Below, piece after piece: positions 276 to 51,252 of a stretch of DNA of 64,000 bases (position 1 is its first letter; each line of letters opens with the position of its first letter). The notes beneath the pieces are model-generated. The model was not told where the DNA came from. It did no database searches and was given only the letters and a program-made list of their open reading frames with translations. Made by a program: the position numbers and the translations under genes. This DNA is from Dillenia suffruticosa. Taxonomy: Eukaryota > Streptophyta > Magnoliopsida > Dilleniales > Dilleniaceae. The stretch lies in NCBI GenBank assembly GCA_033439265.1, contig JAVTVX010000035.1:12364001-12428000 (forward strand), written 5' to 3'.

Positions 276-312
276 TAATTTTATGTCGCGTAACTCTTGC
301 TCACAGTGGTAA

Positions 313-5335: not shown

Positions 5336-5406
5336 AAATTTGGAAATGGAGGAGAGGTGTCAAGCTATAAAAGAGAAAAACACATTCTTCAAATTTGGAA
5401 ATGGAG
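5336..5406 (+). repeat. 16-bp direct repeat across the SDR start codon
   Basis: The exact 16-mer AAATTTGGAAATGGAG occurs at 5336-5351 and 5391-5406, 55 bases apart, each carrying an ATG. The second ATG (5401) opens the SDR frame; the first (5346) opens a different frame that runs over it. Confidence 0.85.
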
Positions 5407-5722: not shown

Positions 5723-5888
5723 GTAGTTATTAACCACACTTCTATAAATCAATTCACCAAAGTAAAGGTTCATATGATATCGAAGGAATTAATGTCCACG
5801 TGGGGCATCTTTCCATAGTTGGAAAATGGAAATTTTCCACTTTTCATATGTATAAATGGTAACTGATAGAATTTGAATTCTCTACAAT
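5723..5888 (+). other. Start of SDR intron 1
   Basis: Non-coding DNA after a good GT donor at 5723, running up to the copia fossil. No acceptor plus second exon is seen before the retrotransposon begins. Confidence 0.45.
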
Positions 5889-13339: not shown

Positions 13340-16300
13340 GTAAAAAAAAAAAGAGAGAGAGAGAAGTGCTGCGTTTTGAGCCAAAACGCAGCACATCAAA
13401 TTAGGGCTTAAAGCCCTAATTCTTCCTCTCTCTCCTTCTCTCTCTCTCTTCCTCTCTCTTTCTCTCTCCGTCTCTTCCCTTTCCCGCTATTCGCCGCCTC
13501 CTTTCCGCCATCGAAGCTGCCCACCGCCCACTGCCATCGCCATCGCCATCGCCACTGACTCTCTCTCTGCTTTCTCCCTCTCTCACTCTCCCTCTCTCGG
13601 TTTCTCTCTCACTCTCCCTTTCTCTCTCTCTCTCTCTTCGGCTTTGCCCGAACCCACCACCTATCGCCGCCGCTCGCTTCGCCGCAGCTGCTCCATCCTC
13701 CCGCGAGCACGACTGCAACTCCTTCCGCTACCACGGGATCTCCCCAGCACGAGCCGAATGCGTCCCTGCGCGATCCATTCAGCGCGAGCATGATCGCGCC
13801 CCTGCACGATCCTCCCCATGCGTACACAGCATGCCTCAGTCTGTGAGCGAGCTGCCTCAGTTCGCGAGCGCGAGCCTGGCCACGAGCGTGCATGGGCACT
13901 AGTGCGCAGCCCACGAGCTGGCTACAGCCTGCGAAGCCCACTGTGGCCCGCAAGCTCGCCAGCCTGTTGACCCACGAGCCTACTGCAGCCCGCGAAGCCC
14001 ACTGCGGCCCGCGAAGCCCATTACGGCCGGCGAAACCCACTACTGCCCGCAAGCTAGCCAGCCTACTGATCCGCGAGCCTGCTGTAACCCACGAGCCAGC
14101 TATGGCTCGCGACGGCCCGTGAGCCAGTGACAGCCCACGAACCTCCACGCAGGTAAATGATTTAGGGTTTCGATTATGATTTAAGTGTTTATGATCTAAC
14201 TAATAAATATTATCTTGATAGGGAACATTTCAGATTTTGGAGTGATCTAGGAGACATTCGAACGAAAATCTATGCTCCGAGAAAACCCTAGGTGAGAGAT
14301 TTCGGACCCATTCAATTTGGTTATTGAATTTAGGATAAATTTAAGATAAAAAGTCTTGTATATGTTAAAATGTAAACTAAATTTGAAATGAATGCATTTT
14401 CGGACATTTTATGTGGTTCATTAGATTAAGTGTAAGAATTTATATGAAATGAGATTGTTCAAGATGATAGAATCAAATTAAGTTGATTAGAATAGTTTCC
14501 CTTGGAATTTAAATTGACCTATACATGAAAATAGTCAGAAATTGAGATTTGAGTTCAAGGGTTGATATAACCTTTCTCAGTATAAATGGTTCTACTTATT
14601 GACAATTTAAATACGATTTTCATATTATGAAAATAGACTTCTATACCTTGAAAATGACATATGATTTAAAACATTTGGATGGAAATCGAAAAGTGTATGA
14701 TTTTTTTTAAAATTTTCCATCTTATAGGAAAATTATTTATTTTAAGGCTTATTTCTGACTTTGAGTGGATTTAGGGCTGAATTTGACTTGGTTTAACAGT
14801 ACGTTAATTGTTTATTAATGAAATGCAACTGGACATTAGAGTGTATTCATAAATTGAAGAGTTAAGACTTGTACAAAATTAGGAAAAATGGATAAATCTT
14901 ATAAAACTTGAAAATTTGATATTAAATTGTAATGATCTGATTAAATTGATATTTTTGAAGACTCGAGAAGTCAGATTGGATTTATATTAAAATAGTGTGA
15001 CCACCCTCCTTAGAAAAGTGGGTGGAATTTTGATATCTACTATTGATTGACAAATCATGTTTTACCGATTTTCAAACAATATGATTTCTATACGTGTGAA
15101 AACTAAATTTTTGGATTTTGATAGACATATTTTTGTGATCATTGGAGTGTCCCAACTAATGATTTTATTGATCTGCATCCATGAATTTGATAACCGGATA
15201 CTGTGTCATTCTTTTTAACATATTGACATGTTTTAATATTTCTACTGTGTTGGCGCGTAGTTTTAAATGGATTTACATGTACTAGATTATATGCCCGACT
15301 GACATTATATTACGATGCATGGGCCTATATGCCCGGCCGACATGATGATGTGATACATGAGGCTACGTGTCCTGCCGACTTGGTGATATGGTGATATGGT
15401 GATATGGTGATATGCTTCTTATAGCATTCCGTAGCCACGAATGACATTTGGTAGAGGCACCCCTTGTACCCAGATACGTTACGGTCGGAGGTATCCGCCA
15501 GATCGTCATGTGTATGGGTGTCCCAGGTTGACCCTTATCGGGGAGGACGTGAGTTTACCTCTATCTAGCACTATACGGGACACCATACATGACCGACTAT
15601 ATATATGTATTATTATTATTATTATTATTATTATTTACAGATTAGTTGGAGTAGTCTGTGGCCAACATTGAGGTAGAAAACTATTATTTAATACTTGCAT
15701 AGTGAAAACCCCCAATGCGCCCGTCCTTAGTCGAGGTAGACCATTGCCGGGGTTGTTTGTTTGGCCGGCTCTACATATGTGACTTGATATATGGATAGAT
15801 GCATATGTTATTTTTTGATGTGTGTCTTGAGATATGTTTTACTCTTAAAACAACATATTATTTTCGCATACTCGATATTATGTTATATGCTTTGACATTT
15901 CAAATTCATCCTCGATATTGATAGCACGATATCAATCCTCTCACTTGCTGAGTATTTTCCCATAGATACTCACCCTTCACTTTCTTTCCCAAAGGAGTAA
16001 TCTCGGACTGAAGAAAAATTTTGTGATTTCATACTTGTGACGTGACTTGATAGCACCGGACTTAGGTATAAATGTTACCATATCTTCTGCTACGATTATT
16101 GGAGATTTTAGTTTGATTAATGTATTCATCTATTTATTTTCTGGGATGACTGTATAATTATGGACATTTATTCGAAAAACTCTCATATTGACTCGGTTCA
16201 TTTGCATTGAGATACCTATATGTATTTAAAATGTTAACTTGAGAATTTATTGTACAAGTATATAAACATTTATATTTGCTCAGTGTGGCGGCTGCTCATG

Positions 16301-18887: not shown

Positions 18888-20690
18888 CATTAAATTAGTA
18901 AATGAATTGCAGACCAGGGATGTTAAATCTACAATGTTGATTTTGCTTTGTAAAAAAAAATTTTGGTCCCTTCATTTCTACTTCTCATCATTGCTACTTA
19001 GTCTCTTCATCCGGATAGATGTTTCCATGCATATAGGCAATTGTATGCATTTATAGTTTCTAATACTAGCCACTATGATCATGTTAAGTGTTGTCTTTGT
19101 TAAATGTTATTATCGTACCTTAACTGTTCTACTTTTCTGCTGTTTATTTCGGTTTCCTTGCGTAGTACAAAATGAAAGTCATATTTACATTGTAAAACAA
19201 AAATAAGGCATTCTTGACCTTTAGATTGGAAAGCTGAAGCCACTGTAGGGTGCTCAAACTGCTTATTATCTATAGATGCTTAACTTGCACAAGATAATCA
19301 TCATTATGAGGTTATCAATGGATAATGTTGGTAAACATTCTATTTTACGTTACAAGAAAATAAAATATCAACGATAAAAAATAATTTATCATAAATAGTA
19401 TCAGAATTATCATAGATTAACATCAAACATTACAAAATAAAAAAGATAAAAATTATCGAGAGATTATCGATAGATTAGTGATGAAAATTAGTGACCGAAA
19501 ATATCCGTCACTAATCTGTCATTGATTTTAGAAACTAAAACTATTTGCTACAAATTAGCGACAGAAAGATTTCGTTGCTAATCTGCCGCTAAATTAAGAA
19601 ATTATGTAAAACTATTAGCGATGGATTAGTGACGGAATTTTTAGTGACAAAAATTTTATATCGTTAATTTGTGTAAAACTATCAGTGACGAAATTTTTAG
19701 CTCCAAAAATTTTTTGTCGTTAATCCGTCACTGATTTTAGAAACTAAAACTATCAGCGATGGAATTTTTAGCGACGAAAATTTTTCGTCGATGATCCGTC
19801 ACTGATTTCAGAAACAATGTAAAACTATTAATGATAAATTAGTGACAAAATTTTTAGCGAAGGAAATTTTTTGTCACTAATCCGTTGTTGATTTTTAATC
19901 ATAATTTTTTAATTAGCACTTTATATTTTATTTTATTATTTTATATTAACAAATCATATTTATTATTTTTCAATATTTCAAATTAGCATTTTATTTTATT
20001 TTTTTAAGAATAATATTATTTTAATTTTTAAATCTTTTATTATTTTATTTTAAGTTAACAATTTATTATTTAATTATTTTATAAAAAATTAGCAATTTAT
20101 GTTATTTTATTATTCATAAAAAATGTGAGAATAAGATAACAAATAAAAAATCACAAATGACGTTGTGGCGTTGTCACAACTCAAATTCTCCTTTTATGCC
20201 TGGGTTTGAGTCCATGTGATGACACTTTTTGGAAGAAAAAAAAAGAAGGCAGGGCAGGCATGCTCGTTGGCGGGTGAACGGGCGTTGGCAGATTATGTAA
20301 AGTTATCAGTGACTAATTAGTGAAGGAAATATTACGTCACTAATCCGTTGTTGATAGTTTTATATATTGCTTGAAATTAGTAATAGATTAGCAATAGAAA
20401 ATTTATTGACAAAAAATTTTGTTGCTAATCAGTCAAAAAATTTAATGATTGATGGTTTTTCGTCATTAATATTTAGTGATGAGCTTTTCAGTAATAGAAT
20501 TAGTGACGGAAATTTCCGTCGCTGATATCTTATTTTCTAGTAATGTTAGATTCAAGTTCAAATTAGATGGAATTGATCTTGTTTTTGTGTTTGCTTTTAT
20601 CGTTGTTATCATTTTAAACCATGCTTCTCTATTGGTTGATTTGACTCCACTTATTTTTTGTCCTAGCAATGATCCAAAGCTTTGATGCAT
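18888..20690 (+). repeat. Dispersed duplicate, copy A (interrupted)
   Basis: Host-like sequence at 18888-19347 and 20546-20690 matches 62069-62125 plus 62834-63396 in the same order and direction. Shared stretches include GTTGATTTTGCTTTGTAAAA, CTGCTTATTATCTATAGATG and TAGATGGAATTGATCTTG. The two parts of copy A are separated by the DNA transposon at 19348-20545. The nature of the duplicated sequence is unknown; no coding frame is seen. Confidence 0.85.
19348..20545. mobile_element. Non-autonomous CACTA-lineage element, complete
   Basis: Ends are inverted repeats CGTTACAAGAAAATAA (left) and CATTACTAGAAAATAA (right, reversed), continuing with ATATCA. The 3-bp target duplication TTA lies at 19345-19347 and 20546-20548. 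The paralogous sequence at 63260-63290 lacks the insert and has a single TTA, which supports these edges. Subterminal arrays carry many variants of TTAGTGACGGAAATTT and its reverse. Near 20160-20290 lies a box-B-like GGGTTTGAGTCC followed by a GC-richer segment. No transposase. Ends differ from the standard CACTA at two positions. Confidence 0.8.
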
Positions 20691-22914
20691 ATTAAATTCA
20701 AATTTCATATCTATTGATATCGTAGACTAAGTGCATAGCAGGAAACCTAGCAATTCTCGATAACTAATTTGAAGAAAGATAAGTGAAGTGATCCATAGGA
20801 AAAGGCAGTGCTCATAGGTTTTTTGTCCCCAAGTCCCCAAGGGGTGAGGGGGTTTTGGGGGGATAGATATAGGGACCAAAATTAATTTTTGTCTTTAAAA
20901 TTTTGCGGGGTTGGTGTTTGAAGAGGAATTTTTTTTTTTTTTAAATCACAAAATTCATTCTTAAACTTTTTAGCGACAAATTTTTTTACTTTCATCCCTA
21001 ATTCCACCCTCAAGAGTGTTTTTTTTTTGTATGGTTAAAAACTATTATAAGCAAAATAAAATTTTTAAAAAAATATATAAGTTAAAATAGTACAGATTTT
21101 TCAATACTTTTAGTACGGTGGTAAGATTTGAATTTTCCTGTATGAATTGAATGTTGGAATTTTTGATGGAAAAGTGGAAAATAAAAAGGAGTGACGGTTG
21201 ACTTGTTAAACAAAGTAGTACGCACCAAACCTCATCAAGGGTAAGTCATTTGGTTATCTTTTGTCTCTTCCAAGGTAAAGATGGATTTATTCCATTTAAA
21301 AATGGTTTCGAGGGTAATTTAATTAAATTAAAATAACACAGAAAATTTCGGAAATAGGTCTATTAATCAACATCATCCAACACAAATGAAACAGAACTAA
21401 AATTAATTAGGTTACTAAAAATATTTTCTTAAAAATAATCATTCTTTTAATAAAGATGATGCCTTGGTACAAAAAGTAAATCTTTTAAATACATAATATA
21501 TTTGATAGAGTATAAATTAGAGTAATAATTGTAATTAATTTTATTTTTTTAGTAAATATTATACTAATAGTTATGTTTTGTGATATTTGTTGCTCTAAAA
21601 TTGATGGAAGAGGTTCATAAAAGAAAGTAGAAAAAAAATGAGCTAAATTAGAATATTTATACAAAATATGAAAAAAAATGGATAACAATGATCTTACATT
21701 AGTATATGGGCATATGAATCATGGGAGTTATTACAGAATTTTCTGGAGGTCAGGTCAATAATATTTAACGAAAATTTCAAGAAAGATAATTGGAGCCTAA
21801 TTTAGAAGCATAAAAAAATTTTAAGATAATTGATTTATTCACAATATTTTGGGATAAATTTTAGAAATTTAACTTTCAAAAACTTTTATCTTTAGGAAGT
21901 TTACTTTTTTTTCTTAAAAAAAAAAAAAAAAAACCAATTTGGATACCTTCTTTGAGTTATCCATTTCTTTTTTCTTTTTAATAGTTGTCAATTTTTAGAA
22001 AACTCCACTATGTATAAGGAGGTAGTCGGAGTGCAAGACAATTGTTTTTTATTGGCTCTTAACACATTATTCCTAGATTAATAAGGGCAGCGGTCATGAG
22101 TCCTTGTAGTTCAATCTATCATTGCTTTTCCAACAGTAACATTCAATTTATTTCGGTAATATTTTATTATTTTGTGAGTTCTTGACTTCTTTCTAAATTA
22201 ATTTTTTAGTTAAATGGTTATTAGAGTCTTGATTTCTAATGATTGTGAGATCTAATGAAATATATTAATTCAACATATCATATGTATTTATTTAATTCGT
22301 ATACTTGATCATAATTTCTAGAGTCTATTGAATAGTGACCAATATATAATAATTGTAGAATAATTTACGATCAATTAAAATAATAAATCCGTAATTGTTT
22401 ATTTGTTTTAATTTAGTAGTAAATAACATAGATATAATACTTTGTTAATAATCTAATATATGTCATAGAAATGATTAATATAATTTAAATAAACCCGTTG
22501 TATATTTATTAATTAAAATTGAGTTTCTCTCGATTTTAATGTTATCGAAACTTTAAATGTTAAGAGTTTCTTTGGGATTGTCTTTCCTTAGGAAAATAAT
22601 TAAAAAAATTTCTCTTAATTATTGACGAATTAAGGAGAAATTAGTTGTTCGATATTTGTTGAACGATTATAACCAATTTATTTATAATTATTGAAATGTT
22701 TAAATATGTCGATAATCAATCACATGAAATCAATGTGGGTATAATTCCTTTGGATTGAAATTGATTTTTCATTGAATTATCTTTTTTTAATTTTGAGTTG
22801 TTTAGTTATTTACTTTTAATCTATTATTTTTTTATTAGATTAATTTATTAGTTTAGTTAAACTCAAACTTCCATACTTTTATTTTTATTTTTACTTTTCA
22901 AAAGAAATAAATCC
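20691..22914. other. Intergenic AT-rich DNA
   Basis: No gene seen. A (G)n-rich patch lies near 20835-20865. Confidence 0.6.
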
Positions 22915-23075: not shown

Positions 23076-26000
23076 CTACTTGTCTAATGTTGTTTTGAGA
23101 TCAATTGGCTTATAAAGAACTTCACTTATAGCATTGGCCATTTCACTTGCTGAAGTAAATCCATCGACCTTGTTGTAGACCAAGTGAAGTACTTGACTCA
23201 TGTCCCAGAACAAATCTTTGCAAGCTCTAGGAACAACACTCCCCTCAGTCTGCAAAACCATTCTTAGCAACTTCTTCCGACTTTCGTTGATGCAATCCTT
23301 CAGTGCTTTAATGGAGTCTTCTTTTGTTATTGTGCCGCCACCTTGTATCATGTACATGTCCACGGCACTCAATTTTCCTTCTTCAGTCTCCCTCTGTAAC
23401 ATAGTGCCACAATTTATGAGTGTAATATACAAGTAAAAGATAGAATGGATTTAGCCCAGTGTTTTTTTAGACATTTTTAAAAATCAGGTCATTTTAATTT
23501 TTTTTATCATTGAATTTTTGAACACTTTAGTTGGTATTTATGAATGGGTCTATAGCCAGTGGGGCAGGACTTGGTCTGGTCCCAACTTGTATTCTTTAAT
23601 ATCCCATATGTACACCGTCCAACTCAACCTATCACATAATCAAATATAATTTTATTAAGAAGATTGGACTCAAGACATGTACCTCGTCTGATTGCACATC
23701 ATTAAGCAGACGACCACAAATAGATAGAAGTTTGAAGAGTTCCTGATATTCAGAACTTCTAATAACCTCTTCGGAAAGCTTGGGCCCCAGAAGATACATG
23801 GCTGGGAGGATAATAGGTCCCAAAGCAATTGAAACAATCGCAGCGCTCATGTACTCATCTATTGTTGAAACAATCTTGTCTCTCGTCCACTTTGCTTCCA
23901 TCCACATACTTGTAAGCAAATCCTTCCACTACCATCACAAAGATATGCAACATCCGAAAAACAATATTAGCATTACTCATTTATTTATTTTTGGCATTCA
24001 AACTATGCAGGAGATACACCACACTGTAAACAAAAGACAAGGTATAAATCTTAATTAGACTAGCAACAAATGCCTTTTCTTTTCCTAGTGTGTGCTCCAA
24101 TTGTATGTGTCACTTGTGGCTATTTTACACGCAAAGTGTTATAGGCATTTTTTTCCTTTTCTTTTCTCCACGTAAAAAAGGTTAATCATCTATATAGTTT
24201 GATAGTATGATTAAAGTAGTTTTGATTCTCCGAGAGCTGACGTAATATTTTCCCATTAGTTATTGCAGACAGGAAAATTTGAATCATGTTATAGGAAAAA
24301 ATTCACCAATAACAATTTTTTTAACATATATAAAAGTCAAATAATTAAACAAATAACGGCATTCTTGCAAGCAAATGTTACACCCAGATGCACGCATTCA
24401 TAGACCAAAAAAGTTGCTTACAATTTCAATGATGTGATCTTTAACACAACGTCGTTGCACTTTCATTGCCTTGTCTGCAGTCTCACAAATGATACCGCGA
24501 AGTGCCCAGAATATAATTTCAACTGTCTCGGAGCAAAAAATGGTATTCTCTTCTATATCCCACCTGCATTTCAATTTTCATCACCATCATTGTATAAGAT
24601 TTATAAATTGTGTAATCACTTCAATAGTAACAAAAGGGAAGTCAAAATTGCTAGAAGCATACTTGTCAAACAAATGAATAAGGTTTTCCTGTTCTTCCTT
24701 AGAACTTCCAACATCAAAAAAGTCATCGATCATATAAGCAAGTACTGCATGCTTGACCCATGATATGCGTACATCTGATCGCTCGGGAGAGAAATTAGTT
24801 GCCGAGGCAGCAAACTGAGTAACCGTCACCTTCCGCCTACTGAACTTTAGTTTGTCTAATCTGCATTCTGTCTCCCAACTGTTGCATTCAATTCAAAGAT
24901 GTCATATATATACATCATTTCCTCGTTTGATTTATCCAAATCTCATAATTTCAGGGTCACCAAAAGCATGCACCTCTCAAGTTGCTTGAGCTCATGTTGT
25001 TGTAACAACTGGCAGCTGTTGAAATCTTGCACTCCTAGATTATGAAAATCTTCATTTGAGATGTTTGAACAACTGGCACCAAAAAACGTTAAACGGATGA
25101 GCTAATGATAATATTGAATGCAGATTTATTTTTTTATTTTTTTATTTTTTTGAGTTATAAGAGATTTGAACCCTAGATCATGTGATTAATAGATTAGGGC
25201 GATGGAGATTGTGATCACTAGGATATTGAATGCAGATACTTCACCATTTGTGAGCAAACTAAAATGATAATGGAAAAGTGACGCTACTTTGTACCGATGA
25301 GCACAAAGCCATCACCTTTCAGTTTCCCTGGTGGTAGTCAGACTAAAGTGCCATAACCATAATTATTTTATTTCGACTTTTTAGATGCCTTGCATGAGTC
25401 CAGAAGACACCCACTTAGCAGCTTGATCCAAGTATCACAAAGGGGAGCGTTCAAAATTTCATTTCGTACCGATATGAAGATTTTGCAATTTGCACCCAGT
25501 TGCTGTCGTAATCCTTTAGATATGCCTTATTAACAATGCGATCCAAACTTGCATGGTAGGGAAAGTTTAGAGCATGAATCACCTGGAACAAATAAACTTC
25601 ATTTGTTAAAGAGCTCTGTAGGAAAGGCAACCAATGTCATCATAGAAGCTCTCTAGTTACCTACTTCTTTAGTAAGATTGCCATCTTGAATTTCACCTGT
25701 GTGTAATTTATTTTGTAGGAACTCTCTTGACCAAGAGTTTTGTTCCTCCAAAGCCGATTCATGTGGACATATCACAAGCTGTGAAGCCTTAAATAACTCC
25801 AGTACACCACTTGTTGTGTCTCTACATTGTCCTTCAATCGAGTCAAGGTATTCAACTTTTTCGACAAATTGAATCAATAAATCTGTATGACATCAAATAA
25901 AGAAAAAAAAAATTCTTGTGAAAAATAGGGAAAAATTATTTATCAACTCTTAAATCTCAGTTAATATATTACCTGAGGAGACATCATATCCGTGAGTGCG

Positions 26001-28321
26001 CAATAGTCGAAATGCCAAGGCGCAAGTGGTGAGATCTAAAACAATCTCTTCATCCTCTTGCAACCACCGCCTGTGTAGAAATAGTATTATGTTTTTGCAT
26101 ACTATAGAATGAAATTTTATGATGCTTCATTAGGCATATAGAATATTAATTACCTGTGTGTTTCATCCAGTACTCTTTTGATCTCATTTTTGAAATGCCG
26201 ATCAGTCCCCAATTTTTCAAGATTATCAATCATAGAAAGACAGACGAAAACATCGAAAGGGTAAATGATTGGAACTGTGGAGAATCAATGGAATGAGACA
26301 AGACCATAACAATATGTCTTAGACATACTATGATATTTACAAGCATATCACTTATTAAGTAGTCATGGGGAGGTACCTCCATCTCCAAAATTCTCCATGA
26401 GCCTGTTGAGGTAATTAAGGCAATTAGCATCTTCAAGGTGAGTGAGAGCAGCTGCTGTGGTGGATGGCGAATTGAAAAGAGATCCATTTTTCCTTTGATA
26501 TGCCATGATGCTTTTCCAGTCGTTCAGCTTACCCATTCCTTCCGCTAAGTATGCTAGGTAGGCTTTGCTTCCTTTTGAGTTACTTCGGTAACATCTAAAT
26601 TATACACAAAATAGAAAGAATGAACATGCTATGGAAAAGGAGAAATGTGTGATCTTGTCTATTAACTCCTATGCCAAAATATCACACCTCTCAAGTTCCA
26701 AATCTCTATTGGAGAAGACAGCTTCTAAATCTTTTGGTGTTAAAGGGAGCACCAAATCCATATCTCGAGCATATTCAACCATACCGGAAAATAGGATGTC
26801 AAAGCCAATCGGAGAATATTGCCTTTCATCATAGACCGATGCAAAATTAGACTTAATGAAATGGAGACCTGCAAGTTGGGAAGCATAAAATAGGATAATT
26901 TATATACCTTTTTCAAGAGTAAAAAGAAAATAAACAAAGGTAAAGAACATATACCTTTCTTGACATGTCCTTCACCTATGTCCCATCTCCTGAGTGCCAA
27001 AATGCATGCCATGGTTGATGAAAGAGCGTCTTTAGTTAGCAAAGGACCACGACATGGCAGACCCCATGAGCCATCAGGATGTTGATTGTCTAGCAACCAC
27101 TTGACGCAGCCAGGAAATAATGGTGCGTGTGATGAATTTGGAGAAGGAACCATAGCCATCCAAGCAGTGTCATATGAAGACACTGAAAGTTCAACCTTAT
27201 CAAACATCCTCTTGATTCTCTCTTTAGACACGTCAACCCTCTGCATAAATGAATTGATTAGTAAATCGTATGGTCCAACCTGTTGACCAAAAATTGTAGA
27301 AGAGAGATTCATTGACAGAGGCTAGAACGCCATACCAGAATAGAGGTCTTGGTTTCTGGTGCAATTTGAATGGCTGGGACTGGACTAGCTGCAAGAGAAA
27401 TAATGTCATTAAACGATTTTTAAAGACGAGAAATGGTGTTAATTTTTTTTACCATGAGTTGGCAATTTATTGATCATTACTTTTTACAACTTGATAGAAA
27501 ATTCTTAGCAAAATATAACTGATCCCTTTTGTCAATTGTTTCCTCATAATATGTTCAAGTATTGTCCATTTTAAACAAGTCATGGAATAGTTATAATAAT
27601 ATGTTCAAAAACCTGAACTTAAAATAAATAAACCCTTTGTAACACCAAAAGTCTCCTATTTATCAATGGGAACTGAACCGAATATTTTACCACCAAACTC
27701 TAATACTCAATATATATATATATATATATATATGCATATATATAAAAAAAAACCTCAATGCAAAAGTATAACAGGTGAACTTCGGTTCGAACAAAAAAGA
27801 ATTTGGATCATCGTAATATAATATAATGGGTATAATAAGTATTATATAATTTTAAAATATAAAATCACTTGTTCCGTTAAAAAGTAATACAAAAAACGAC
27901 AACAACAAATAAAAAAGTACTTTTTTAAATTTATAATATCCAAATGTCGTAAATGATTCAAAGCCATCCTAGTCCTTCAATTTTATGTACGAGAAAATTG
28001 AAATATGTTGGATTGTTTATTGACAAATATAATAATGATGATTTAAATAACTTTATTTATAGATTTTTACATCTCACATCTTTTGTTGCAAAAACAATTA
28101 ACGTGAAACAATACAAAACAAAAAAGTTAAGATTACCTAAACACCTAATCACAATATTTACAATCAAATGTAGAGTTTGGTTTATGTTAAAATATCAAAC
28201 TATTTGACTAATGAAATTATGCTTAAGAACGAGAGTGACCTGAAACCTTTTGGGGGGATCCTCGTTTCTTCATTTGGAGAAGAGTCTGCGTACAAGGGAG
28301 AGATAAAGCTCTCGACTCCAT
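23076..28321 (-). CDS. Kaurene synthase-like class I diterpene synthase, 14 exons
   Basis: Exons (high to low): 28321-28240, 27388-27336, 27240-26955, 26868-26688, 26594-26377, 26274-26154, 26070-25973, 25882-25665, 25582-25470, 25072-24974, 24878-24663, 24563-24422, 23928-23683, 23393-23076. All introns are GT-AG; phases match throughout; 2391 nt give 796 residues, normal for the family. Residues 1-about 40 are basic and Ser/Thr-bearing, fitting a plastid transit peptide. SSYDTAW is at 66-72 and DGSWG at 101-105. The class II DxDD position reads DLTT (326-329), so no protonation-type activity is expected. The class I motifs are intact: DDFFD (541-545) and NDVQSDERE (685-693). Such enzymes ionise a copalyl-type diphosphate in plastids to make a diterpene. 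GPII (646-649) keeps the kaurene-synthase isoleucine. Yet [17 protein letters not shown] departs from the usual NGVLTTVVDDFFDVGGS, and SILRVDVSKE replaces SxLCFEGTKE, which suggests a specialised paralogue. Exon 1 was chosen from its splice phase and leader. Confidence 0.9.
25111..25237 (-). mobile_element. Short tRNA-type SINE with 15-bp target duplication
   Basis: A 97-bp insert (25126-25222) in the intron between exons 10 and 9 of the diterpene synthase is flanked by exact copies of ATATTGAATGCAGAT (25111-25125 and 25223-25237). Read on the minus strand it starts CCTAGTGATCAC, has a box-B-like GGGTTCAAATCTC (25173-25161) and ends in an A-rich tail, AAAAAATAAA-type. Box A (TAGTGATCACA) is weak. 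The perfect duplication suggests a recent insertion. Confidence 0.8.
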
Positions 28322-31271: not shown

Positions 31272-34164
31272 CTAAAATTTTTTTTGACGGATACATGTGT
31301 ACAAAGCTCGCTCCACAATGAGAACCCTAAATTTAATTTTTCCAAACCCCACTTATTCAGTTCTGATTTAGTAGGAGTACTTGATCGCTCGTATCATTTA
31401 TATTGGAATAGAAAATATTTTTGAAGCAGTCATACTTGGGATTGAGCACTTCTCATTGTCAATTTTTTCCGAAGGGCCTGAATTTGGGTATGTTTAAATT
31501 TCATTCTTGGAGCTTGAAAGGGCCAACAGGACTTTTTTTCTGTGTTTTGAACTTAGGGATGCCGCAATTCATACCCAGCAACCAAATAATATATATGTTA
31601 TCGTATGGATATAAGGATGAAGCTTTTAATTGAGTTCCATTCCGTGTATGGTGCTTTTAGATTAACACACAGTAGATACGGTGCTTACATCTTTGGAATT
31701 GAGTCAATGAAAATGTAATTTCTTGCAAAGCATGGACTATAGAGCATGGGTATGTGCACAACTTGATGTAAATGTGGGAATGCAGAAAGTTTTGAAAAAT
31801 AGAATGCAACATGCAGGGGCGGAACTAGAAATGATTAATTTTTTTAAAAGAATTAATTTTAAGTTTTTTAAAAAAATTAATTTGCAATTTTTTTTTTTTA
31901 AATTAGAAGTATATAGTTATTATTTTAAAAAAATTGATAATTGGTTTGAAAAAAATTAGAAGTATAAGATAATTGGTTTACATTTGTATAGTTATTTTTG
32001 ACTTAATATTTTGTACTTTTATTTTCATTCAATTGATTGATGCAGGTGAAAGAAATAATTCAAAAGGAAAAGGTTTTGTGGTGGAATACTTTATTATTGT
32101 ACATATAACACATGCAATCAATTGGCTTAGTTATATGGGTATTATGACCACATCAGTTAGTAAAAGATTGGGGTTATGCATCTCTTTTGTTTGATGTAAA
32201 ACTTCATGCACTGTAGAAATAATAAAAACATATAAGAAAAAATTTAAGGCAAAACTTTATGAAAATAGTGGTGCTAATGCTTGTGATTAAAGAAAGGTTG
32301 TATACTTAATGTTTAAAGATATTATTTGGGAATAAAATATTTGTTAGATTTTGCATAGGAAAAGTTCATTGTAGGTGAAATAATCATAGTAGATGTCACT
32401 TTCCCAAGAATAAATTGCTACAAAAATGCTAACAGATTTTTTGTTCCTTTTTTTATATAATTAATCATCATAGATATAATATATAACACCAATTGGTTTC
32501 TAAAATTTTAAGCGAAAACGAAAAATCTTGACCTCAAAAAGAAGATACACTAATAAACATGAGCCCTTAGGGTTTTTTTTTTTTTTTTTTTTTTTGAAAA
32601 GTGAAAATTTGTGATTTAACATATCATGTTTATTATGTTAAAATATAATAATGATCTTAATAATTTAAAACATAATATACATATAAAGACTTTTTTTTTC
32701 TTCTTTTTCTTTTGCTGAGCAAATGGGTGAAAGCAACGGCTAACATTCCTATCCCTTCTAATAAAAAATAGATGCAAATTTTGCACTTGATATAACTTCA
32801 ATGAGGCAATATTTATCTACTCAGAACATTTATCATGCATTCACATTAACTTTGATGGGGCAGGGTGGCAGCCCCTGCCAACACGTCTGGGATATGAAAT
32901 AATGATATTTTTCTACATTATTGTAAAACCAACTTATTATAATTTTTTCTTATGCGAAAGACTCTTTCCACCGGTATAAATGACAAGTACGTTAAGAATT
33001 TCTAAAGTATCTAAGAATTTTCCACACAATGTGCGAGGCAAATGAAATTCATAAAAGATTGGATCTGCCACAGAATATTTGACATATATTTAGCATATGT
33101 CAAACAAATGCCGCGTTTGAGATGGTTCCTTCTGAAGTCCCCATGCTTCATGGTCCTAGGTCTTGGCATAGTTTGAAGATGACTAATCCTCAATGGTTTT
33201 TCTTCTGATGGGGAAATACTATATTTTGGTCATGGTTTGAATTATCTTCCCAAGTAGGATGATTTTATTGAATATGTTTGTACTAAAGATTTGGTTGTGT
33301 GTGCTCCAACCAAATAGGTTTCACATCAAACGCTTGTTTGTAAGTATAAGCTATTGTGTGGAAACACATATGGTGGTCCTTGTGCTTCATCCAACTACTT
33401 TATTTGTTATTGTTTGCACTTTCTAATACATTTTGCTTTTATAAAAAGAAAAAGGGTCCTAATATCCCCTTGAGAGGTTTGTTATATGGAAGTTCTACCT
33501 GTCTCATCTAATAAAGCATGGGAAGGAATTGATCATAGTATTGGTGTGGTCCTATTGTATGCCAGTTGGATGTCATATTTATTAGGCGTATCAGGCAACA
33601 GTTTGCATTTTGTAACCTTTTGCTTTGGTCCTGTGATTGGGTTTATGGTGGTACATGAAAATGGTTAATCAAAACAGAATTCAGCAAGGATTATAGAAAT
33701 AACCCCAAAAAGGAAAGGAGAAATGATTCCTTGATGTGTTTTTGTACATCTGGGAGTTCTAAATTGTCTTCTTAAGTACTATTCTTCTTTTTATTGGTGA
33801 TGCATGTGATTGATGAATACTATATTTCTTATACATATTTCTGCACAAACTTTGAGAGATTTCTTCTACAGGTACAAGTACGCAAGACAGTATTTCCCTT
33901 CTGGAGAACAAACTAAGGATATGTTGCTGGGATGCTAGTTGAAAAACACAAGTTCAAGCTTGGGCTCAAAGCAAATGCAGTTTCAAAGTGCTTGTGATCT
34001 ACTTATGTTGAACAACTGTGGTTGTAGCACACAGTGCAAGGTAACTTGAAAACCAAGGTGCAACGAATCTTGAACCTTCTTCTCCTTCATCTTCTTAATT
34101 TTTCAATCCTGGCTATGTAATCTAGTTGCCTGATCGATAATGCAGCTTTTTGGAAGTATAATAG
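31272..34164. other. Non-coding DNA before the gypsy fossil
   Basis: Probably intron and flank of the gene starting at 30593. AT-rich, with a long T-run near 32572-32595. A possible terminal exon lies at 33872-33942. Nothing else supported. Confidence 0.4.
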
Positions 34165-36197
34165 TGTCACGCCTCGATCCTCGGATCGACCACGCAACAG
34201 TCGCCGTATTGTCTCGATACACGGGCATAACCTCCCCATATACCGGGATTCCGTAAGACTACAAATCAGTTCAACAATTCATCAAATACACAACTCTATC
34301 ATAAATAGGAAAAATCATATAACAATACTCAGGCAAAGGAACAATACGGTTCATCCCTGTACACACGAGCATGCGTCGACACACAAAGAGGCGGGGGTTC
34401 CTGTACATGCATGCATGTAAAATTGGCCATTCTAGCCGTTCCAAAATTTTTAGTACAATTAAAACATTTAAAACAAAAGAAGTCTCAAATCATAATTGCA
34501 AGATTTTACTAACACTCACAAGATTTTACCAACACTCATATGAAGAAACGAGATAGCGTCAGTAAAGTCCATACGGTATGTGATGAACAGAACTCTGTAA
34601 AATCGAAAGAAAATAACAAATCCCATCATTTTAAATCAAACGTCTCATTTAAACAATAAGTCTAACCAAAATAAGAGTTAAGAGAAAATAAACAAGTTCC
34701 GTACGAACTCTAATACAAGTTATATAAGAAATCCATCAATATTTGCTCTATATATGAAACAAGTATTGATTTAATTCATACTAAAAGAATTATACAAGTC
34801 TTCCCTTCTATGGATTTCAAAATCAACCAAAATGAACTTGTATCACTATATACCTACACAAGTCAGCGGAATAAACCTTCTCAAACTCCAATTTCTGTCG
34901 CAGACCTAAACTTCCTCTGAAAGATGTTAAAGAGAGGGGTGGGTATTGAGAAATATTTAGTGACTGGAGTGCAATGGTATAATTGTGTGATAAATGAGGG
35001 ATGAATGTTGGGTATCAAAGTATATCTCAAACAATACTTCATATATATCGAAACATTTTCAATAAATCAGATAATTCACAAAATATGCATCCATATCAAA
35101 TATTTTTTCAGAAAATTACAAGGGTCCTATCGAAATTACTTCTGTCCTGCGTTTGGCCGAACCAAGATAGAAACCCACCAAGTGGTTTTCCATTTAAGTA
35201 TTTCAAATACTACCCCCATCCTTAGCGTTGGCTCGGACCTCCAGGGGTGCAATCTGGATAATCCGACGTGGCAGAGAAGAGGTCGTGTATACCTCTCTCG
35301 CAATGAAACCCCAACCACGCCATCCCGTCGGGTCGCTTCGTGGAGAGAATGACTATAGCCATTATATTCATACACCATCATTTCACAATCATTCAAATTA
35401 TAATCAATATGCCATGTTTCATCAAACAAATTCTGAAATTCATGCTACAAGCATTTATAAATCTAATATCAAATGTAAATGGCACAGATTCATTGATAAT
35501 TATATAAAATGCATTCGTAATTCAAACTTCCATTCCTGACATCCCACAATCACAAATAATTTTATATAAAACTTGTAAAAATCATTCAAAACATTTTACA
35601 AAAAAATTTAAACTCATTTTACTCATTTATAACACAATGGACCATCCACCTACCTTTAGAGAGAGTATCCACTCTCTACACCCTATCGATACTTAAGGAA
35701 TTTCCTTTCAAACTCCAATGGATCTTCCTAAATCAATAATAACAATTCTGAGATAGTACAAATCATAAACCCTAACACATTCTCTCATCTTAAATAGCCT
35801 ACATTCGATCTATTATTGAAAGCACTTAGAAATTCTCTTACCTAGGGTTTCTCGATTCGCAGACCTAGTTTCCATCCTCCATTCATTCAGCCCAGAACCT
35901 ATAGCATGTCTAAATTAAGGCAAAGGTCATCAATTAAACCTAACTACTAAGAACATTCAAATTCCTAAAGTATTTACTCTCAACTGTCACCCTTACTTAC
36001 ACAGGGGATGATTGTAGAAAAATAGAACCTAGGGTTTTTACGAAATTGAGGCTGTCGCAAGAAGGTTGCAGGAAGATCTCTCAGGAGAGAGAGAGCAAAG
36101 CACGCGCAAGCAAGGGAAAGCGAGGTTGTCGCGCACGAGCAAGAGAACCCGAGGTGGTCGCACGCTTGCAGGAGGGAGAAAGCAGAGAGTGAAGTAT

Positions 36198-36262
<65 letters not shown>

Positions 36263-36459
36263 TGGTGAGAGAGAGACAGGACGATGGTGAAAGAAGGGGC
36301 AGAGGATGGCGGAGATGGTGGCGGGGAGGCGACGGAAGAGAGACGAAATCAGGAGAGAGAGGCGGAAAGTGAGAGAAATTAGGACTGAAAGTCCTAAACT
36401 AATTGGGGGGAGACGCGGCATTTTGGGGTAAAACGTGACGTCTCTCCCTTGGTATTACA
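34165..36459 (-). mobile_element. 3' LTR of the minus-strand gypsy fossil
   Basis: On the minus strand it begins TGTAATACC (36459) right after a purine-rich tract and ends GTGACA (34165). It matches 43895-46040 along nearly its whole length. By eye the first 115 bases differ at about 18-20 positions, with later parts closer, so the insertion is not recent. A (GA)n-rich block lies at 36199-36262, CT-rich in the element's own direction. Confidence 0.8.
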
Positions 36460-36478
36460 ACACTTAACCCCCTAAAAA
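36460..36478 (-). promoter_or_regulatory. Polypurine tract of the gypsy fossil
   Basis: The minus-strand reading TTTTTTTAGGGGGTTAAGTG abuts the LTR start. The plus-strand relatives at 13061-13078 and about 56180-56197 have the same AGGGGGTTA / AGGAGGTTA core. Confidence 0.65.
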
Positions 36479-39400
36479 AAATTTCATTCTCGAAATTTAA
36501 GAGAAAATTGTACCTCAAAAGGTTGGGGGTGTTACATCCGCATTAATTCTTCAGTTTCCCAAATCTATTCTTTTACTTGATTGTTTCTCAACAACACCTT
36601 AACCATAGGAATCTGCTTACTCCTTAACTGCTTGATCTGCCTATCAATGATTTTACTGGTTGTACCTTGAAACTCAAATTCTCATTCAATTCCACCGGAG
36701 GTGCTTCCAATTTGTGTGAGAAATCCGGTAAATACTTCTTCAACATGGAAACATGAAAAATGTCATGGATCCTTTGCAACTCCGGCCGTAGTTCTAGCCG
36801 GTATGTCACTTGTCCAATCCTTTCAAGAATTCTGAAGAGACCGATATAACGAGAATTTAGGTTTCCCCGTTTCTGAAAATGGATTACGTCATTCCAAGGA
36901 GATATCTTCAAAAACACAATATCTCCTTCTTCAAATTCCAAAGGTCCTCTTCTCCTGTTGGCATAGTTCTTTTGTCGATCTTGAGCCGCCTTCATTCTTT
37001 CCTGAATCAGCTTCACTTTTTCTTTAGTGACCTCGATCATTTCTATACTTTCAATCTTTCTCTCTCCAACTTCATCCCAACACAAGGGAGTACGACACTT
37101 CCTTCCATAAAGGGCTTCATATGGAGGCATCCCTATGCTTGCTTGATAACTATTGTTGTAGGTAAATTCAACCAACGGAAAGTTTCTATCCCAACTACCT
37201 TGAAATTCCATAACACATGCCCTAAACATGTCCTCCAATGTTTGGATGGTGCACTCCGATTGTCCATCGGTTTGATGATGAAAAGCAGTGTTAAATTTCA
37301 ACTTAGTTCCTAAAGACTCTTGCAACTTTGACCAAAATTTAGAAGTGAATCGAGAATCACGGTCCGATACAATAGACACCGATACTCCGTGAAGTCTTAC
37401 GATCTCATCAATGTACAAATTTACCAATCTTTCTAAGGAATAGTTGTTCTGAATCGGCAAGAAGTGAGCCGATTTGGTGAGAGGGTCTACAATCACCCAT
37501 AGGGTATCGTAACGGTCCGGAGTACGTGGCAATCCCACTACGAAATCCATAGTGATATGTTCCCAGTTCCATTCGGGAATTGGTAACGGTTGAAGTGTTC
37601 TTGCCGGTTTCTGATGTTCGGCCTTGATCTATTGGCATACAAGACACTTCGCCACAAATTCGGCTATCTCTCTCTTCATCCCAGACCACCAATATGATTT
37701 TTTGATGGTTTGATACATTTTGGTACTCTCCGGATGCATAGCATAAGCCAAGGAATATGCCTCTTCAAGTATGGCCTTCCAGAGATCTTTATTTTTCGGA
37801 ATACATGTGCATTTCCCATACACTATAATTCCATCATCCCGAATCCGGAATTCACCACCTTCCCTTTTTGAATTTTCTCAATAATGCCCTTCAATTCATT
37901 ATCGGTACCTAAACCTCCCGAATGCGATCCACCAATGTAGGCCTCACCACAAACTTGGCTATTTAAGCACCTTGATCATCCTTAACAAACTCGACTCCAA
38001 GGGCTCGGAGTCCAACTAAACAATAGAGGTAAGAACTCTCTCAGAATGCCATAGATGAGGATTTGCAGCTTAAAGTATCAGCAACAACATTCGCCTTCCT
38101 AGGGTCGTAATCAATCACCAAGTCATAGTCTTTGATCAGCTCTAACCACCTTCTTTGTCTCAGATTGAGCTCCTTCTGAGTGAGTAAATATTTGAAACTC
38201 TTATGGTCGGTAAAGATCTTGCAAGTAACCCCATACAAATAATGTCGTCAAATCTTAAGGCAAATACAATGGCAGCTAGCTCTAAATCAAGAGTAAGGTA
38301 ATTTATTTCGTGTTTCTTCAGTTGACGAGAAGCGTAAGCAATCACCTTATCACCTTGCATCAGCACGCATCCTAATCCTTGCTTGCTAGCATCACTGTAT
38401 ATCACATAATCACCACCGCCACTAGTAGGGAGAGCAAGGATAAAAGTGGAGGTCAATATTTGTTTAAGCTCTCGAAAACTATGCTCACACTTCTTGCCCC
38501 ATTCGAACTTGACTCCTTTCCGAGTCAAATTGGTCATCGGAGCTGCTATTTTCGAGAATTTTTTTACGAATCTCCGATAATACCTTGCTAATCCAAGAAA
38601 ACTTCGTATCTCGGTGACATTTTTAGGCTGCTTCCACTTCAGAATGACTTCCACCTTCTTTGGATCCACAAAAATCCCGTCACTAGAAACCACATATCCC
38701 AAAAATCCAATCTCTTTTAGCCAAAACTCCCATTTTGAGAACTTGGCATACAACTCTTTCTCCCTAAGAGTTTGCAAAATGATTCGGAGATGTTCGGAAT
38801 GCTGTTCATCACTTTTGGAATACACCAAAATGTCGTCGATGAATACTATGACAAATTTATCAAGATAGGGATGGAACACTCGATTCATGAGATCCATGAA
38901 GGCCACGGGAGCATTTGTCAACCCAAATAGCATCACTAGGAATTCGTAGTGTCCATACCGCGTTCTAAACGCGGTTTTGTGAATATCACTACCCTTGATC
39001 TTCAATTGATGATAACCAGATCTCAAGTCGATCTTTGAAAAGATACTTGTACCTTGAAGTTGATTGAACAGATCATCAATTCTCAGAAGAGGATACTTAT
39101 TCTTGATCGTTGCCTTGTTGAGTTGTCGGTAGTCGATACATAATCAGAGAGTTTCGTCCTTTTTCTTCACAAATAAGACCGGAGCACCACAAGGCGAAGT
39201 GCTCGGTCAGATAAACCCTTTCTCCAACAACTCTTGGAGCTGAACCTTCAACTTTTTCAACTCTACAGGTGCCATTCGATACGGGAGAATAGAAATTGGT
39301 ACGGTACTGGGAATTAGATTTATAGTGAAATCGAACTCCCGGTTTGGTGGCAACCTAGACAACTCTTCCGAAAAAACGTCCGGAAACTCATTTACCACAA

Positions 39401-42182
39401 GAATATCGTCCAACTAGGACTTCTCACCGTGGTATCAACAATGAGTGCCAAATAAGCTTCACATCCCTTATGCACTAGTCTCCGTGCTTCAAGAGCTGAA
39501 ATTATACAACTTGGCACCACTCGCCGTTCTCCGGCGAATACAAGCAAGGGATGTCTTGGCTTTCGGAATTCCACTTCTTTAGTGAAACAATTCACGGAAG
39601 CTTGGTGAAGATACAACCAATCTATATCTAGAATGACATCAAAATCTTTCATTTCCAACGGAATCAAATTCGACTCGAGAGTTACTTCCCCGATTTTTAC
39701 CTCACAAGACTTATACAATGCATCCCTAATTAGATGTTCTCCCAAAGGTGTGATAACCAATAATTCCTCAACAAGTGGAACTAAAGGTTTATTAGAATGC
39801 CTGGCAAACCCCGAACTCATAAAGGAATGATTAGACCTGGTATCTATGAGCATATGTGTATCAATATCAAAAATTTTCATCGTACCTATTACTACATCAG
39901 GATTAACTTTGGCCTCTTCATTTGTCATGGCATAGATTCGAGTTCGTTGTGTAGGGGCAGCTACAGTATTACTTCCCGTGCCCGTCCTCGGAGAACTAAT
40001 AGTGAAAGGTGCAGAAGCAATTGTCGGATCTCTTCTAGAACCACTGAGGGACCTCTAACTTGTCGGCTTCCTTGCCCTTCTACATTTAACTCCGGACAAG
40101 AGTGCCGAATGTGACCCTCTTTCCCATAATGGTAGTATCTTTTGGGACCCGGATGACGCCCCTTGCAATTCAAGCAAGTTTCTCCTCTACCATCCCTGGA
40201 CCTTACTACCATACCAACAGTTTTGCTGGAAGTACTAGGCCTAAAAGTAGATTGGTTTGGAGGAAAGCCAACCGACCCCGAAAAGAATCCACCATTATAA
40301 GAGCCTATGCCTCGATTTTTTTAAAACTTTGACTCAAATCGGAGCCACTAGGCCTCTTTCCTTTCTGATACTCTCTGACTTTGTTTCTCTCCATCACCAT
40401 TTTCTCGGCCCTCAAGGCCAAGTCTAGAATGTTTTGGAAAGTATGCCTCTTGGTGATGGGCATTTTCTCTCTGATATTCAAATTCAGTCCTGACTCGAAC
40501 TTTGAACTTATAGACTCCTCGGAGTTCACAAACTCCGAAACATAATTGGCAAGCTCTCTTAATTCTGTCTCGTACTCAAATATTGTCTTGTTTCTTTGAG
40601 CTAATTTGAAAAATTCCTCTCTTTTTTGATTCTGATAGAATCGGGTGTAGTATTTCTCTTCGAAGGCTCTAAGAAATTCTGTCCAAGTAGGAGGAACATG
40701 AGTCATTCCCTTCACATTCTCCCACCATATTCTCACACCTTTATCCAACAGTTTCACCGCCACCCATAATTTCATCTCATCGCTCAGTCTCATATCGGAG
40801 ACGGTCTCTTGGATTTAGCCAATCCATTCCTTGGCCACTGAAGTATCAGAAGTGCCCGCGATTGTCTCACATCCTAATTGCCTTGCCTCCTTTATCAACT
40901 TAGATAACTCCACAGTAGGGCGATCGATTGTTCTGACAACTGGAGGAGGAGGTGCTAGTGGGGTACTAGGAGTAGCAACCAGCACTGAAGGAGGAGCCGG
41001 TGAAGGAGCTGAAGTCACATGTGGAGCTTGGTACTGCGCTCTGAAAGTGTTCCACCACTCCATTACTTGCTGAAGAGCAGCAATAGGAGGAGCCGAAATC
41101 CCGGTAGGAGGAGCCGGGTGCGTAGGCACGAAAGGAGGAAGAGCATGCGAGGACGACTCATCTTCGTGCTCTGGTGGAGGAATCTCGTTCAGATTCCTCA
41201 TTCTCCTTCGTGGAGGCATAGTGATTTACACAACAAAAAGTTATAATTAAGTCAAAGGGTTAAGCGAAGGTTAATACTTAACCCTCTAAAAAGAATGTTT
41301 CTAATTTCCTAATAAATCCATGGAATACTTTGTATATTCTTTGAACACTACAAAAAAACATGGTTTTAGCCACGGATTTTCGCGACGAAAAAAATTCGTC
41401 GCTATTTTGCGACAAATTTAGCAACAAAAACTTTTTCGTCGCTAATTTGCCACAAAATTTGTAACGAAAAGGAAGTCGTGGCTAAATTAGCGATGGACAC
41501 ATCATTCGTAGCAAAATTCATCGCTAATTAGTGACGAAAAAATTTTCGTGGCTAAATTTGTCGCTAATTAGTGACGAAAAAATTTTCGTGACAAAATTCG
41601 TCGCTAATTGGCGACAAAAAACTTTTCATTGCAAATTTCGTAACTAAATAGATTTTTTATATATAATTAAATAAAATATAATATTAATATAATATTTAAA
41701 TTAAAAATTAATTTAACAACCACGGTTGGTAATTTAATTTAGTGACGGATTTCCAAATCTGTGGCTGATTCAGCGACGGATTCCAAATCCGTGGCTGAAT
41801 AATTATAATTTTATTTTATTTTTATTTTATTTTAATAATTTTAGCGACGGATTGTAAATCCGTCGCTGAATTTTATCTTCTTTTAATTATAATTTTATTT
41901 TATTTTTATTTTATTTTTATTTTATTTTATTAATTTATATTAACAAATCATATTATTATTTTATAATATTTTAATTTACATTTTATTTTATTATATTATA
42001 TTTCTAAATTCTTAAAAAAAACCATATATTTTATTTTATTTAAATTATATATATATTTTAATTAATTTATTATTTTTTTCCCTTTTTTATTTAATATTTT
42101 TTATTATTGTATAGGTAATTTTATTTTATTTGTATTATTTTATTCAATAATATAAAATTTTTAATTAAATATTAATCTGAAC

Positions 42183-42420
42183 CAGCGCGGGCGCCTGCCT
42201 GCCTAGGCGCTCGCGCCCTGAGTGCCTGCCTAGGCGCTCGCCCCCAGGCAGGCAAGCGCGGGCGCCCGTGCGCCTGCTGGGGCGTGCCTGCGTGGGCGCC
42301 CAGGCAGGCAGGCGCGGGCACCCGCCCTGCTGGGGCACGCCTACTGGGGCGTGCCTGCTTGGGCGCCCAGGCAGGCAGGCGCGGGCGCCCGCCCTACTGG
42401 GGTGCGCCTGGGCGTCCTTC
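42183..42420. repeat. GC-rich block in the CACTA element
   Basis: About 240 bases made of variants of GGCGCCCAGGCAGGCAGGCG and its reverse (GCCTGCCTAGGCGC), between sequences that are mostly A and T. Reading frames across it give only low-complexity peptides. Confidence 0.8.
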
Positions 42421-43104
42421 ATTGGTTTTAATACAAAAAATACAAATAATTTGTAGTTGAAGAGATTCAAATCTTGAACTTGGACCTCGAACTCGAATTT
42501 AACAGACATATCACCACCACTTAGTGTTGTTGTGTGATAATACTTTTTTTTTCTTTTTTCCTTCTCTTTGTTTTCTATTCTCACTTTTTTTCCTTATCTT
42601 TATTTTTGGGTTTTTTTTTTTCTTTCTACTCTCATTTATTATATATAATAATTTTATTATAACGAATAAAAATATTTTGTAATTAAATATATAGATTTTT
42701 TAAATTATTAATATATTATAATTTATTGACGATTATGATTTTATAGTTTTGAGATATTGTAATCCATTTTTAAATTATGGATTAAAAAAATAAAATAAAA
42801 TTGAAAAAAAATAATAAAATAATAAGGTAAAAGAAAAAAGAAGAAATCAAAATATAATATTAACATATTTTTTAATTAATTAATTATTTTATTTTAAATT
42901 AGTATTTTATTATTTTTTATTTTATTAAAAATTATCATATTTATTATTTTTAATTAATATTATTTTAGGTGGGTAGTATAAATAAAAAAAGTTATTATAT
43001 TTATTATTTTAAATTATGATTATATTTTATTTTATTATTATTAGAAAAATGTGAAATAAAGATAATAAATAATAAAAAAGAAATTTTTATCATAATAATA
43101 TCTT

Positions 43105-43165
43105 TGATTCAGTGGTTTACAGGTTGCATGTAGGAGTTCGGAGGAGTTCGGAGTTCGAACCACGG
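43105..43165 (+). other. tRNA-like box A/box B stretch in the CACTA element
   Basis: TGGTTTACAGG (43111-43121; box A consensus TRGYNNARNNG, one mismatch) and GAGTTCGAACC (about 43149-43159; close to box B GGTTCGANTCC). A GC-rich tail follows. The same TGGTTTACAGG occurs in the inverted CACTA copy. Not a foldable tRNA gene as far as I can see. Confidence 0.45.
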
Positions 43166-43874
43166 TGGAGGCAGAAGGCGCGGCATTTTCCAGTAATTAA
43201 GAGTGCCTGCGCGGGGTGCTGGCTTGGGGGGGCAAGGGTGGCACAAGCGCTGGCTCGAGCGGGCGGGCAAGTTGTGGTGCTGGCTCGGGTGGGCGAGGGT
43301 GACACGGGTGACACGTGTGCTCCCTCGACATTTTGATGGAATTTGAAATCAGCGACGGATTTTTTTATTATTACAGATTTTTTTCCCCTAAATTAGTGAC
43401 GGATTTTAGTGACAAAAATTATCTGTCGCTAAATTTAGCGACGAATTTTAGATTTTAGTCGTTAAATTTAGCAACGGATTTTTTTATGTCGTTAATTTAG
43501 CGATAGATAATTTTTTGGCGCTAAAGTTTGTGACGAATTTTAGTGACGAAAAATTATTTTTTGCCAAATTTAGCGACAGATTTCAATTTTCATCGCTAAA
43601 TTTAACGATGGATTTCTAATTTTCGTCACTAAATTTTTGCGACGTGTTATTAGGGACGAAAAATTTTTTGTCACTAAATCCGTCGCTAATGTTTTTAGCG
43701 ACGAATTTTTTAAAAATTTTCGTCGCTAAATTTGTGGCTAAAAGGCTTTTTTTTGTAGTGGAAAACCTTTTTTGAAAACCAAACATTTCAAAATTTTTAG
43801 AAAACTTTCGGAACATTTAGAAATATTTGAAATTATATCCAAAACCATTAAACTTTTAAAATCGTGAGCCTACG

Positions 43875-43886
43875 GCTCTGATACCA
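43875..43886 (-). promoter_or_regulatory. Primer-binding site of the gypsy fossil (tRNA-iMet)
   Basis: The minus strand reads TGGTATCAGAGC eight bases inside the 5' LTR, which fixes the element's direction. Confidence 0.9.
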
Positions 43887-43894
43887 ATAAAGTC

Positions 43895-51233: not shown

Positions 51234-51240
51234 ATTTTAT

Positions 51241-51252
51241 TGGTATCAAGTA
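51241..51252 (+). promoter_or_regulatory. Primer-binding site, third gypsy family
   Basis: TGGTATCAAGTA, a decayed form of the tRNA-iMet primer site. Confidence 0.65.

Follow-up and report, generated by a model that had tools for sequence, protein, structure and literature searches.

A constrained kaurene synthase-like gene in Dillenia suffruticosa probably encodes a specialised class I diterpene synthase

A cleanly preserved 14-exon gene in a transposon-rich part of the Dillenia suffruticosa genome raises the question of whether it still encodes a working diterpene synthase and, if so, for which branch of metabolism. The DNA analysed, which we call the window, is a stretch of 64,000 nucleotides from contig JAVTVX010000035.1 (C35:12364001-12428000), and the kaurene synthase-like (KSL) gene lies on its minus strand, from 28321 down to 23076. 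We consider it likely that this is a functioning gene for a three-domain class I diterpene synthase of the TPS-e (KSL) subfamily, that it is a local duplicate on C35, and that it serves specialised rather than hormone metabolism, with ent-copalyl diphosphate as the most likely substrate. The gene structure, motifs, paralogues and constraint were computed here; from these we infer the substrate, product, plastid location and role.

An independent rebuild of the gene agrees exactly with the preliminary description, which had reported 14 exons joined in phase by GT-AG introns, no stop and a product of 796 residues. The coding sequence is 2391 nt (796 codons plus the stop), and all 13 introns are GT...AG. 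In order of transcription, the minus-strand exons occupy 28240-28321 (exon 1, with the start codon at 28319-28321), 27336-27388 (exon 2), 26955-27240 (exon 3, carrying the SSYDTAW and DGSW motifs), 26688-26868 (exon 4), 26377-26594 (exon 5), 26154-26274 (exon 6), 25973-26070 (exon 7), 25665-25882 (exon 8), 25470-25582 (exon 9), 24974-25072 (exon 10), 24663-24878 (exon 11, carrying DDFFD), 24422-24563 (exon 12), 23683-23928 (exon 13, carrying helix G with PIx and residues 1-7 of the second metal motif) and 23076-23393 (exon 14, including the stop codon). Spliced alignment of the window protein to the window returned identical exon edges with zero frameshifts or stops; the query being that same protein, this adds little independent weight for the edges. 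The splice model is nevertheless supported independently of RNA-seq because internal exon lengths are the same across paralogues, whose models were built with the window protein as guide and the splice sites left free. Exons 3, 4, 5, 7, 9, 10, 12 and 13 measure 286, 181, 218, 98, 113, 99, 142 and 246 nt in each of the 14 copies tabulated for exon lengths, and exon 6 is 121 nt in 13 of them, the exception being L049, in which a frameshift was modelled within this exon. For exon 11 the length is 216 nt in 12 copies and 219 nt in two; exon 8 is 218 nt in eight, 215 nt in five and 227 nt in one. The splice scan gave a tie for the intron 2 acceptor between 27279 and 27240, and the conserved 286-nt exon 3 favours 27240.

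The encoded protein has the layout and catalytic motifs of a class I enzyme. Pfam places PF01397 at residues 226-424 (E 1e-40, 139.9 bits against a gathering score of 37.6) and PF03936 at residues 494-732 (E 2.4e-57, 194.5 bits against 26.3). Among 48 PDB sequence matches at E<=0.001 the best is abietadiene synthase (3s9v; residues 50-787, E 5.8e-113), and this alignment, together with the 796-residue length and SSYDTAW, fits the gamma-beta-alpha layout of about 800 residues with SxYDTAW. Both metal-binding motifs named in the preliminary description are present and match the class I patterns DDxxD and (N/D)Dxx(S/T/G)xxxE: DDFFD at residues 541-545 (24713-24727, minus strand) and NDVQSDERE at 685-693, of which NDVQSDE (685-691) is encoded at 23683-23703 and R692-E693 by the two codons that open exon 14 (23388-23393), both on the minus strand. 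The class II motif DxDD is absent from the beta domain, where the segment aligned with DIDDTAM of AtCPS reads LDLTTCAL, as expected of a monofunctional class I enzyme. A search of a viral contig collection returned no relative.

Two further positions bear on the product. The helix G motif PIx is present as P647-I648-I649 (23809-23817, minus strand), and all 14 copies shown have it; the sections available of PMC11795633 and PMC5118566 describe PIx as conserved in plant ent-kaurene synthases (KSs), with its Ile needed for the full cascade, and as predictive of KS-type chemistry. Met617 is also kept, as it is in 11 of the 14 copies. According to the available part of PMC4625925, M607 of PtTPS19 (equivalent to A710 of PpCPS/KS) blocks formation of 16alpha-hydroxy-ent-kaurane, and small residues at that position yield it; from the 31-residue spacing from PpCPS/KS I741 we infer that Met617 is the M607 equivalent. 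Acting in the plastid, DDFFD and NDVQSDERE would hold Mg2+, which would ionise the diphosphate group of the substrate; the motifs and what is known of the family point to a bicyclic C20 compound, most probably ent-copalyl diphosphate. The alpha-domain pocket would then steer the cation to a diterpene. With Ile648 and Met617 retained, a kaurane-type skeleton formed without water capture is predicted.

Whether the gene is still maintained was assessed against its relatives on C35. The preliminary description held that it had been kept intact, probably under selection, and that a ratio of nonsynonymous to synonymous rates (dN/dS, ω) near 1 would speak otherwise. Pairwise maximum-likelihood (ML) ω is 0.521 against the closest paralogue, L010 (dN 0.0297, dS 0.0570, p=0.0066 against 1), and 0.417 against the next copy, L009 (p=3.5e-8), which bears the proposal out. 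Runs from codon 25 onward with an older L009 model gave 0.540 (p=0.014) for L010, 0.400 for L009 and 0.315 for L018, and a three-branch fit on the same basis gave 0.486, 0.448 and 0.425 for the window gene, L010 and L009, with a single value of 0.438 equally good. The indel and stop tests are the stronger evidence. Between the window gene and L010, introns 2-13 differ by a Kimura two-parameter (K2P) distance of 0.071 with 18 gaps in 1711 sites, and the nine short introns hold 5 gaps in 711 sites, whereas the coding sequences differ by a single codon deletion, located in L010. At the short-intron gap rate 8.4 coding indels would be expected on the window gene's lineage and none is seen (P(0)=2e-4). 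When neutral decay was simulated over the time elapsed from the L010 split onward, copies acquired a mean of 3.4 stops (P(no stop)=0.035), and none of 5000 neutral copies was free of stops, frameshifts and splice-site losses; with a clock taken from the long terminal repeats (LTRs) at 34158-36379 and 43887-46039 (K2P 0.104), P(no stop) fell to 0.008 and again 0 of 5000 copies were clean. Because intron gaps stand against a clean coding sequence, no neutral copy stayed clean and ω is below 1, selection is supported, and the window gene was constrained during most of the time since its last duplication.

These results make it unlikely that the gene is a very recent pseudogene, unexpressed or freed from selection but too young to carry lesions. 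Such a history would fit its transposon-rich flanks, including a Gypsy copy 5.8 kb upstream whose LTRs are 10% diverged, the reduction of the nearby copy L011 to a fragment, and the ω of the window gene's own branch, which at 0.486 differs from 1 only marginally (p=0.048 when fixed at 1). The expected indels and simulated lesions argue for constraint over most of the time since the L010 split, and a loss may have occurred only within the last small fraction of that time.

The gene is not a sole survivor but one of three intact copies on C35. In 596,357,000 bases on 37 contigs, a protein search found KS-like matches that make up at least 20 loci, spread over six contigs (four on C35, three on C34, seven on C1, one on C11, four on C5 and one on C2), a count that reflects our own grouping of the matches. 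We modelled 17 of the 20, and 13 of these are without stop or frameshift from exon 3 onward; the remaining four are the fragment L011, the 5'-truncated L014, L049 with its modelled frameshift, and L051, whose sequence piece ended inside the gene. The models of L053 and L054 have 13 exons. Forced fits for L011 and the 5' half of L014 were left unused, and exon 1 of L012, L017, L049 and L054 was not reliably placed. The nearest copy, L010 (C35:12.70 Mb), lies 0.31 Mb away, is 93.7% identical (745/795) and is intact. L009 (C35:12.56 Mb) is about 83% identical in a first model lacking exon 1; its complete model has 14 exons and zero lesions. An apparent fusion of exons 1 and 2 with a two-codon gap in L009 was rejected as an artefact of the sequence end, as 3 kb more gave the lesion-free 14-exon model. 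L011 (C35:12.83 Mb) retains only exon 13 and parts of exon 14. The downstream flank of the window gene at 20543-21525 (no strand assigned) is common to L009, L010 and L011, and the duplicated unit therefore exceeds the gene itself.

In a tree of copies from this genome and two TPS-d outgroups, the window gene pairs with L010 at 100/100 and the two join L009 at 100/100; the C34 and the C1/C11 copies form separate clades, and L052 and L053/L054 fall outside all three groups. As a separate observation, intron 1 (27389-28239) is 851 bp in the window gene versus 106 bp in L010, and part of the long form can be aligned with L009 over 318 sites; the short intron may therefore be the derived state.

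Placement in this tree also bears on which copy serves gibberellin synthesis. TTxxDDxxD is the hormone-KS extension of DDxxD, as described in the portion of PMC9945934 available, and the window protein lacks it, reading A537-Y538-M-I-DDFFD. Among the 14 copies a TT pair occurs in L052, L053 and L054, and TT plus DDxxD in L052 only (TTVVDDFYD). It is therefore very improbable that the window gene is the genome's gibberellin-pathway ent-kaurene synthase. It does retain DDFFD, PIx, Met617 and the second metal motif, but TTxxDDxxD is missing and the clade to which it belongs is a young, duplicated one; both signatures are found in L052, which the tree places apart from the C35, C34 and C1/C11 clades. 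Because TTxxDDxxD is absent from the window gene and present in L052, the former is best interpreted as a specialised KSL; of the modelled copies, L052, on contig C5, is the strongest candidate for the hormone KS. Two other motif variants were seen among the paralogues. L053 (C5:0.45 Mb) and L054 (C2:6.6 Mb) form an outer KS-like pair with TTxxDExxD (DEFFD) and Tyr at the 617 position, and L015 (C1:1659001-1669000) is an open 14-exon KSL with NNFFD in place of DDFFD and Arg at the 617 position, which is probably catalytically dead or altered despite its open frame.

A further question is whether the ancestor of the window gene and L010 altered its catalytic pocket, so that the enzyme would make a product other than ent-kaurene or use another substrate. 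We regard such neofunctionalisation as possible, if less probable than retained kaurane-type chemistry. On the stem before the window gene/L010 split, the alpha domain received 22 of the 27 nonsynonymous nucleotide changes that lie outside the N-terminus, compared with 12 of 27 on the L009 branch (Fisher p=0.010 between the branches; p=0.078 for the contrast between domains within the stem). Nonsynonymous and synonymous counts on the stem are 22 and 8 in the alpha domain and 5 and 7 in gamma plus beta, and on the L009 branch 12 and 10 and 15 and 9; as these are nucleotide counts, with residue 511 hit twice and S678 unchanged as a residue, the 22 stem changes correspond to 20 altered residues. 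In ML fits to four sequences, alpha-domain stem ω is 1.30 (outgroup L050) or 1.38 (outgroup L018) compared with background values of 0.26-0.28 (p=0.0012 and 0.0016). For gamma plus beta the stem ω is 0.25, which is lower than 1 (p=0.0175 and 0.024). Of four single-branch alpha-domain tests the stem was the strongest, the L009 branch was raised too (0.85, p=0.04), and the window gene's own branch gave 0.33. With residues 505-530 removed, the stem value drops to 0.85 (p=0.02). Since the domain split was chosen post hoc, after the motifs had been seen, these p-values are exploratory. Gene conversion was considered as the source of the excess and ruled out, because the introns of the window gene and those of L009 have diverged evenly over their whole series (0.105 in introns 2-8, 0.106 in introns 9-13).

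Several of these observations weigh against a conserved, kaurane-forming enzyme. Positions 523, 526, 539 and 700, all in the alpha domain and invariant in 12 other copies, are altered in the window gene and L010. Changes on the stem include V539M, two residues ahead of DDFFD, and Y640I, in helix G eight residues ahead of the PIx Ile. The alpha-domain stem ω of about 1.3 does not differ from 1 (p=0.65, 0.59), so that positive selection and relaxation of the domain both fit, and kaurane chemistry may have been lost on this stem. We tentatively suggest that the common ancestor of the window gene and L010 may have passed through a phase of rapid change limited to the catalytic domain, with the other two domains constrained and constraint then returning, and that a new diterpene product could have arisen through near-pocket sites (helix segment 510-526, V539M, Y640I with the VSIAL helix G, Y690D and N700S) rather than through PIx Ile to Thr or a Met607-type switch. 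Retention of PIx and Met617 speaks for kaurane-type chemistry, which we continue to prefer.

The gene is of a known kind, in an ordinary family with repeated KS duplication, and the catalytic-domain detail is modestly interesting. It resembles plant ent-kaurene synthases of TPS-e (Arabidopsis KS, poplar PtTPS19) in its three-domain class I structure, DDxxD, second metal motif, SxYDTAW, PIx and Met at the 607 equivalent, and differs in lacking the threonine pair of TTxxDDxxD and in belonging to an expanded duplicated clade, the comparison being one of motifs. KSL genes of rice and poplar PtTPS20 are, in the parts of PMC4625925 and PMC9945934 available, likewise tandem or local KS duplicates with catalytic-domain divergence; the window gene shows neither of the known single-residue switches (PIx Ile to Thr; Met607 to Thr), its changes lying at other alpha-domain sites. 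Abietadiene synthase (TPS-d3), as far as the source excerpt describes its group, shares VSIAL in helix G, but the window protein has PI rather than TV after VSIALG and no class II DxDD in its beta domain. According to the available portions of reviews from 2022 and 2024, no TPS-e structure existed at those dates. Repeated KS duplication into TPS-e/f is described in the accessible part of PMC6779861, and flowering plants are known to gain new labdane-related diterpenes by duplicating KS, after which the copies diverge. In the trio formed by the window gene, L010 and L009 on one contig, the catalytic domains differ at sites that are not the described switches, and residue swaps among the three proteins could reveal a new product determinant.

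The surroundings of the gene consist largely of decayed elements. With regard to a diterpenoid gene cluster, in which the KSL would adjoin a CPS, P450 or SDR of its pathway, a search for P450 and DxDD motifs in 62 sequences (349,091 bases with overlaps) returned none, which is weak evidence, as it used an unspliced pattern only and had no positive control. Pfam families of Copia and Gypsy pieces occur in six of 10 open reading frames (ORFs) scanned in the window. The Gypsy element upstream of the gene lies on the minus strand at 34158-46039, with the LTRs given above and gag, reverse transcriptase and integrase-type pieces between them. Its right-hand LTR lies between large inverted repeats, at 41366-43735 and 46316-48078, which reach 425 nt at 85% and are built from TTAGCGACGAAAATTT-like units that also occur at 19618-19901. 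Direct repeats at 48521-52616 and 56200-61996, about 7.7 and 9.4 kb apart and 78-88% identical, carry gag-like ORFs without a Pfam match and are probably two related decayed elements. A GC-rich tandem repeat with a unit of about 61 bp stands at 6987-7188 in the otherwise AT-rich window. At the left, an SDR exon (5371-5730, plus strand; PF00106, 1.2e-18) is followed by retroelement sequence, and no second SDR exon was matched within the window. The flank of an SDR paralogue at C35:12.758 Mb picks up again at 16031-16245, and a shorter SDR-like remnant lies at the left window end (199-297, plus strand).

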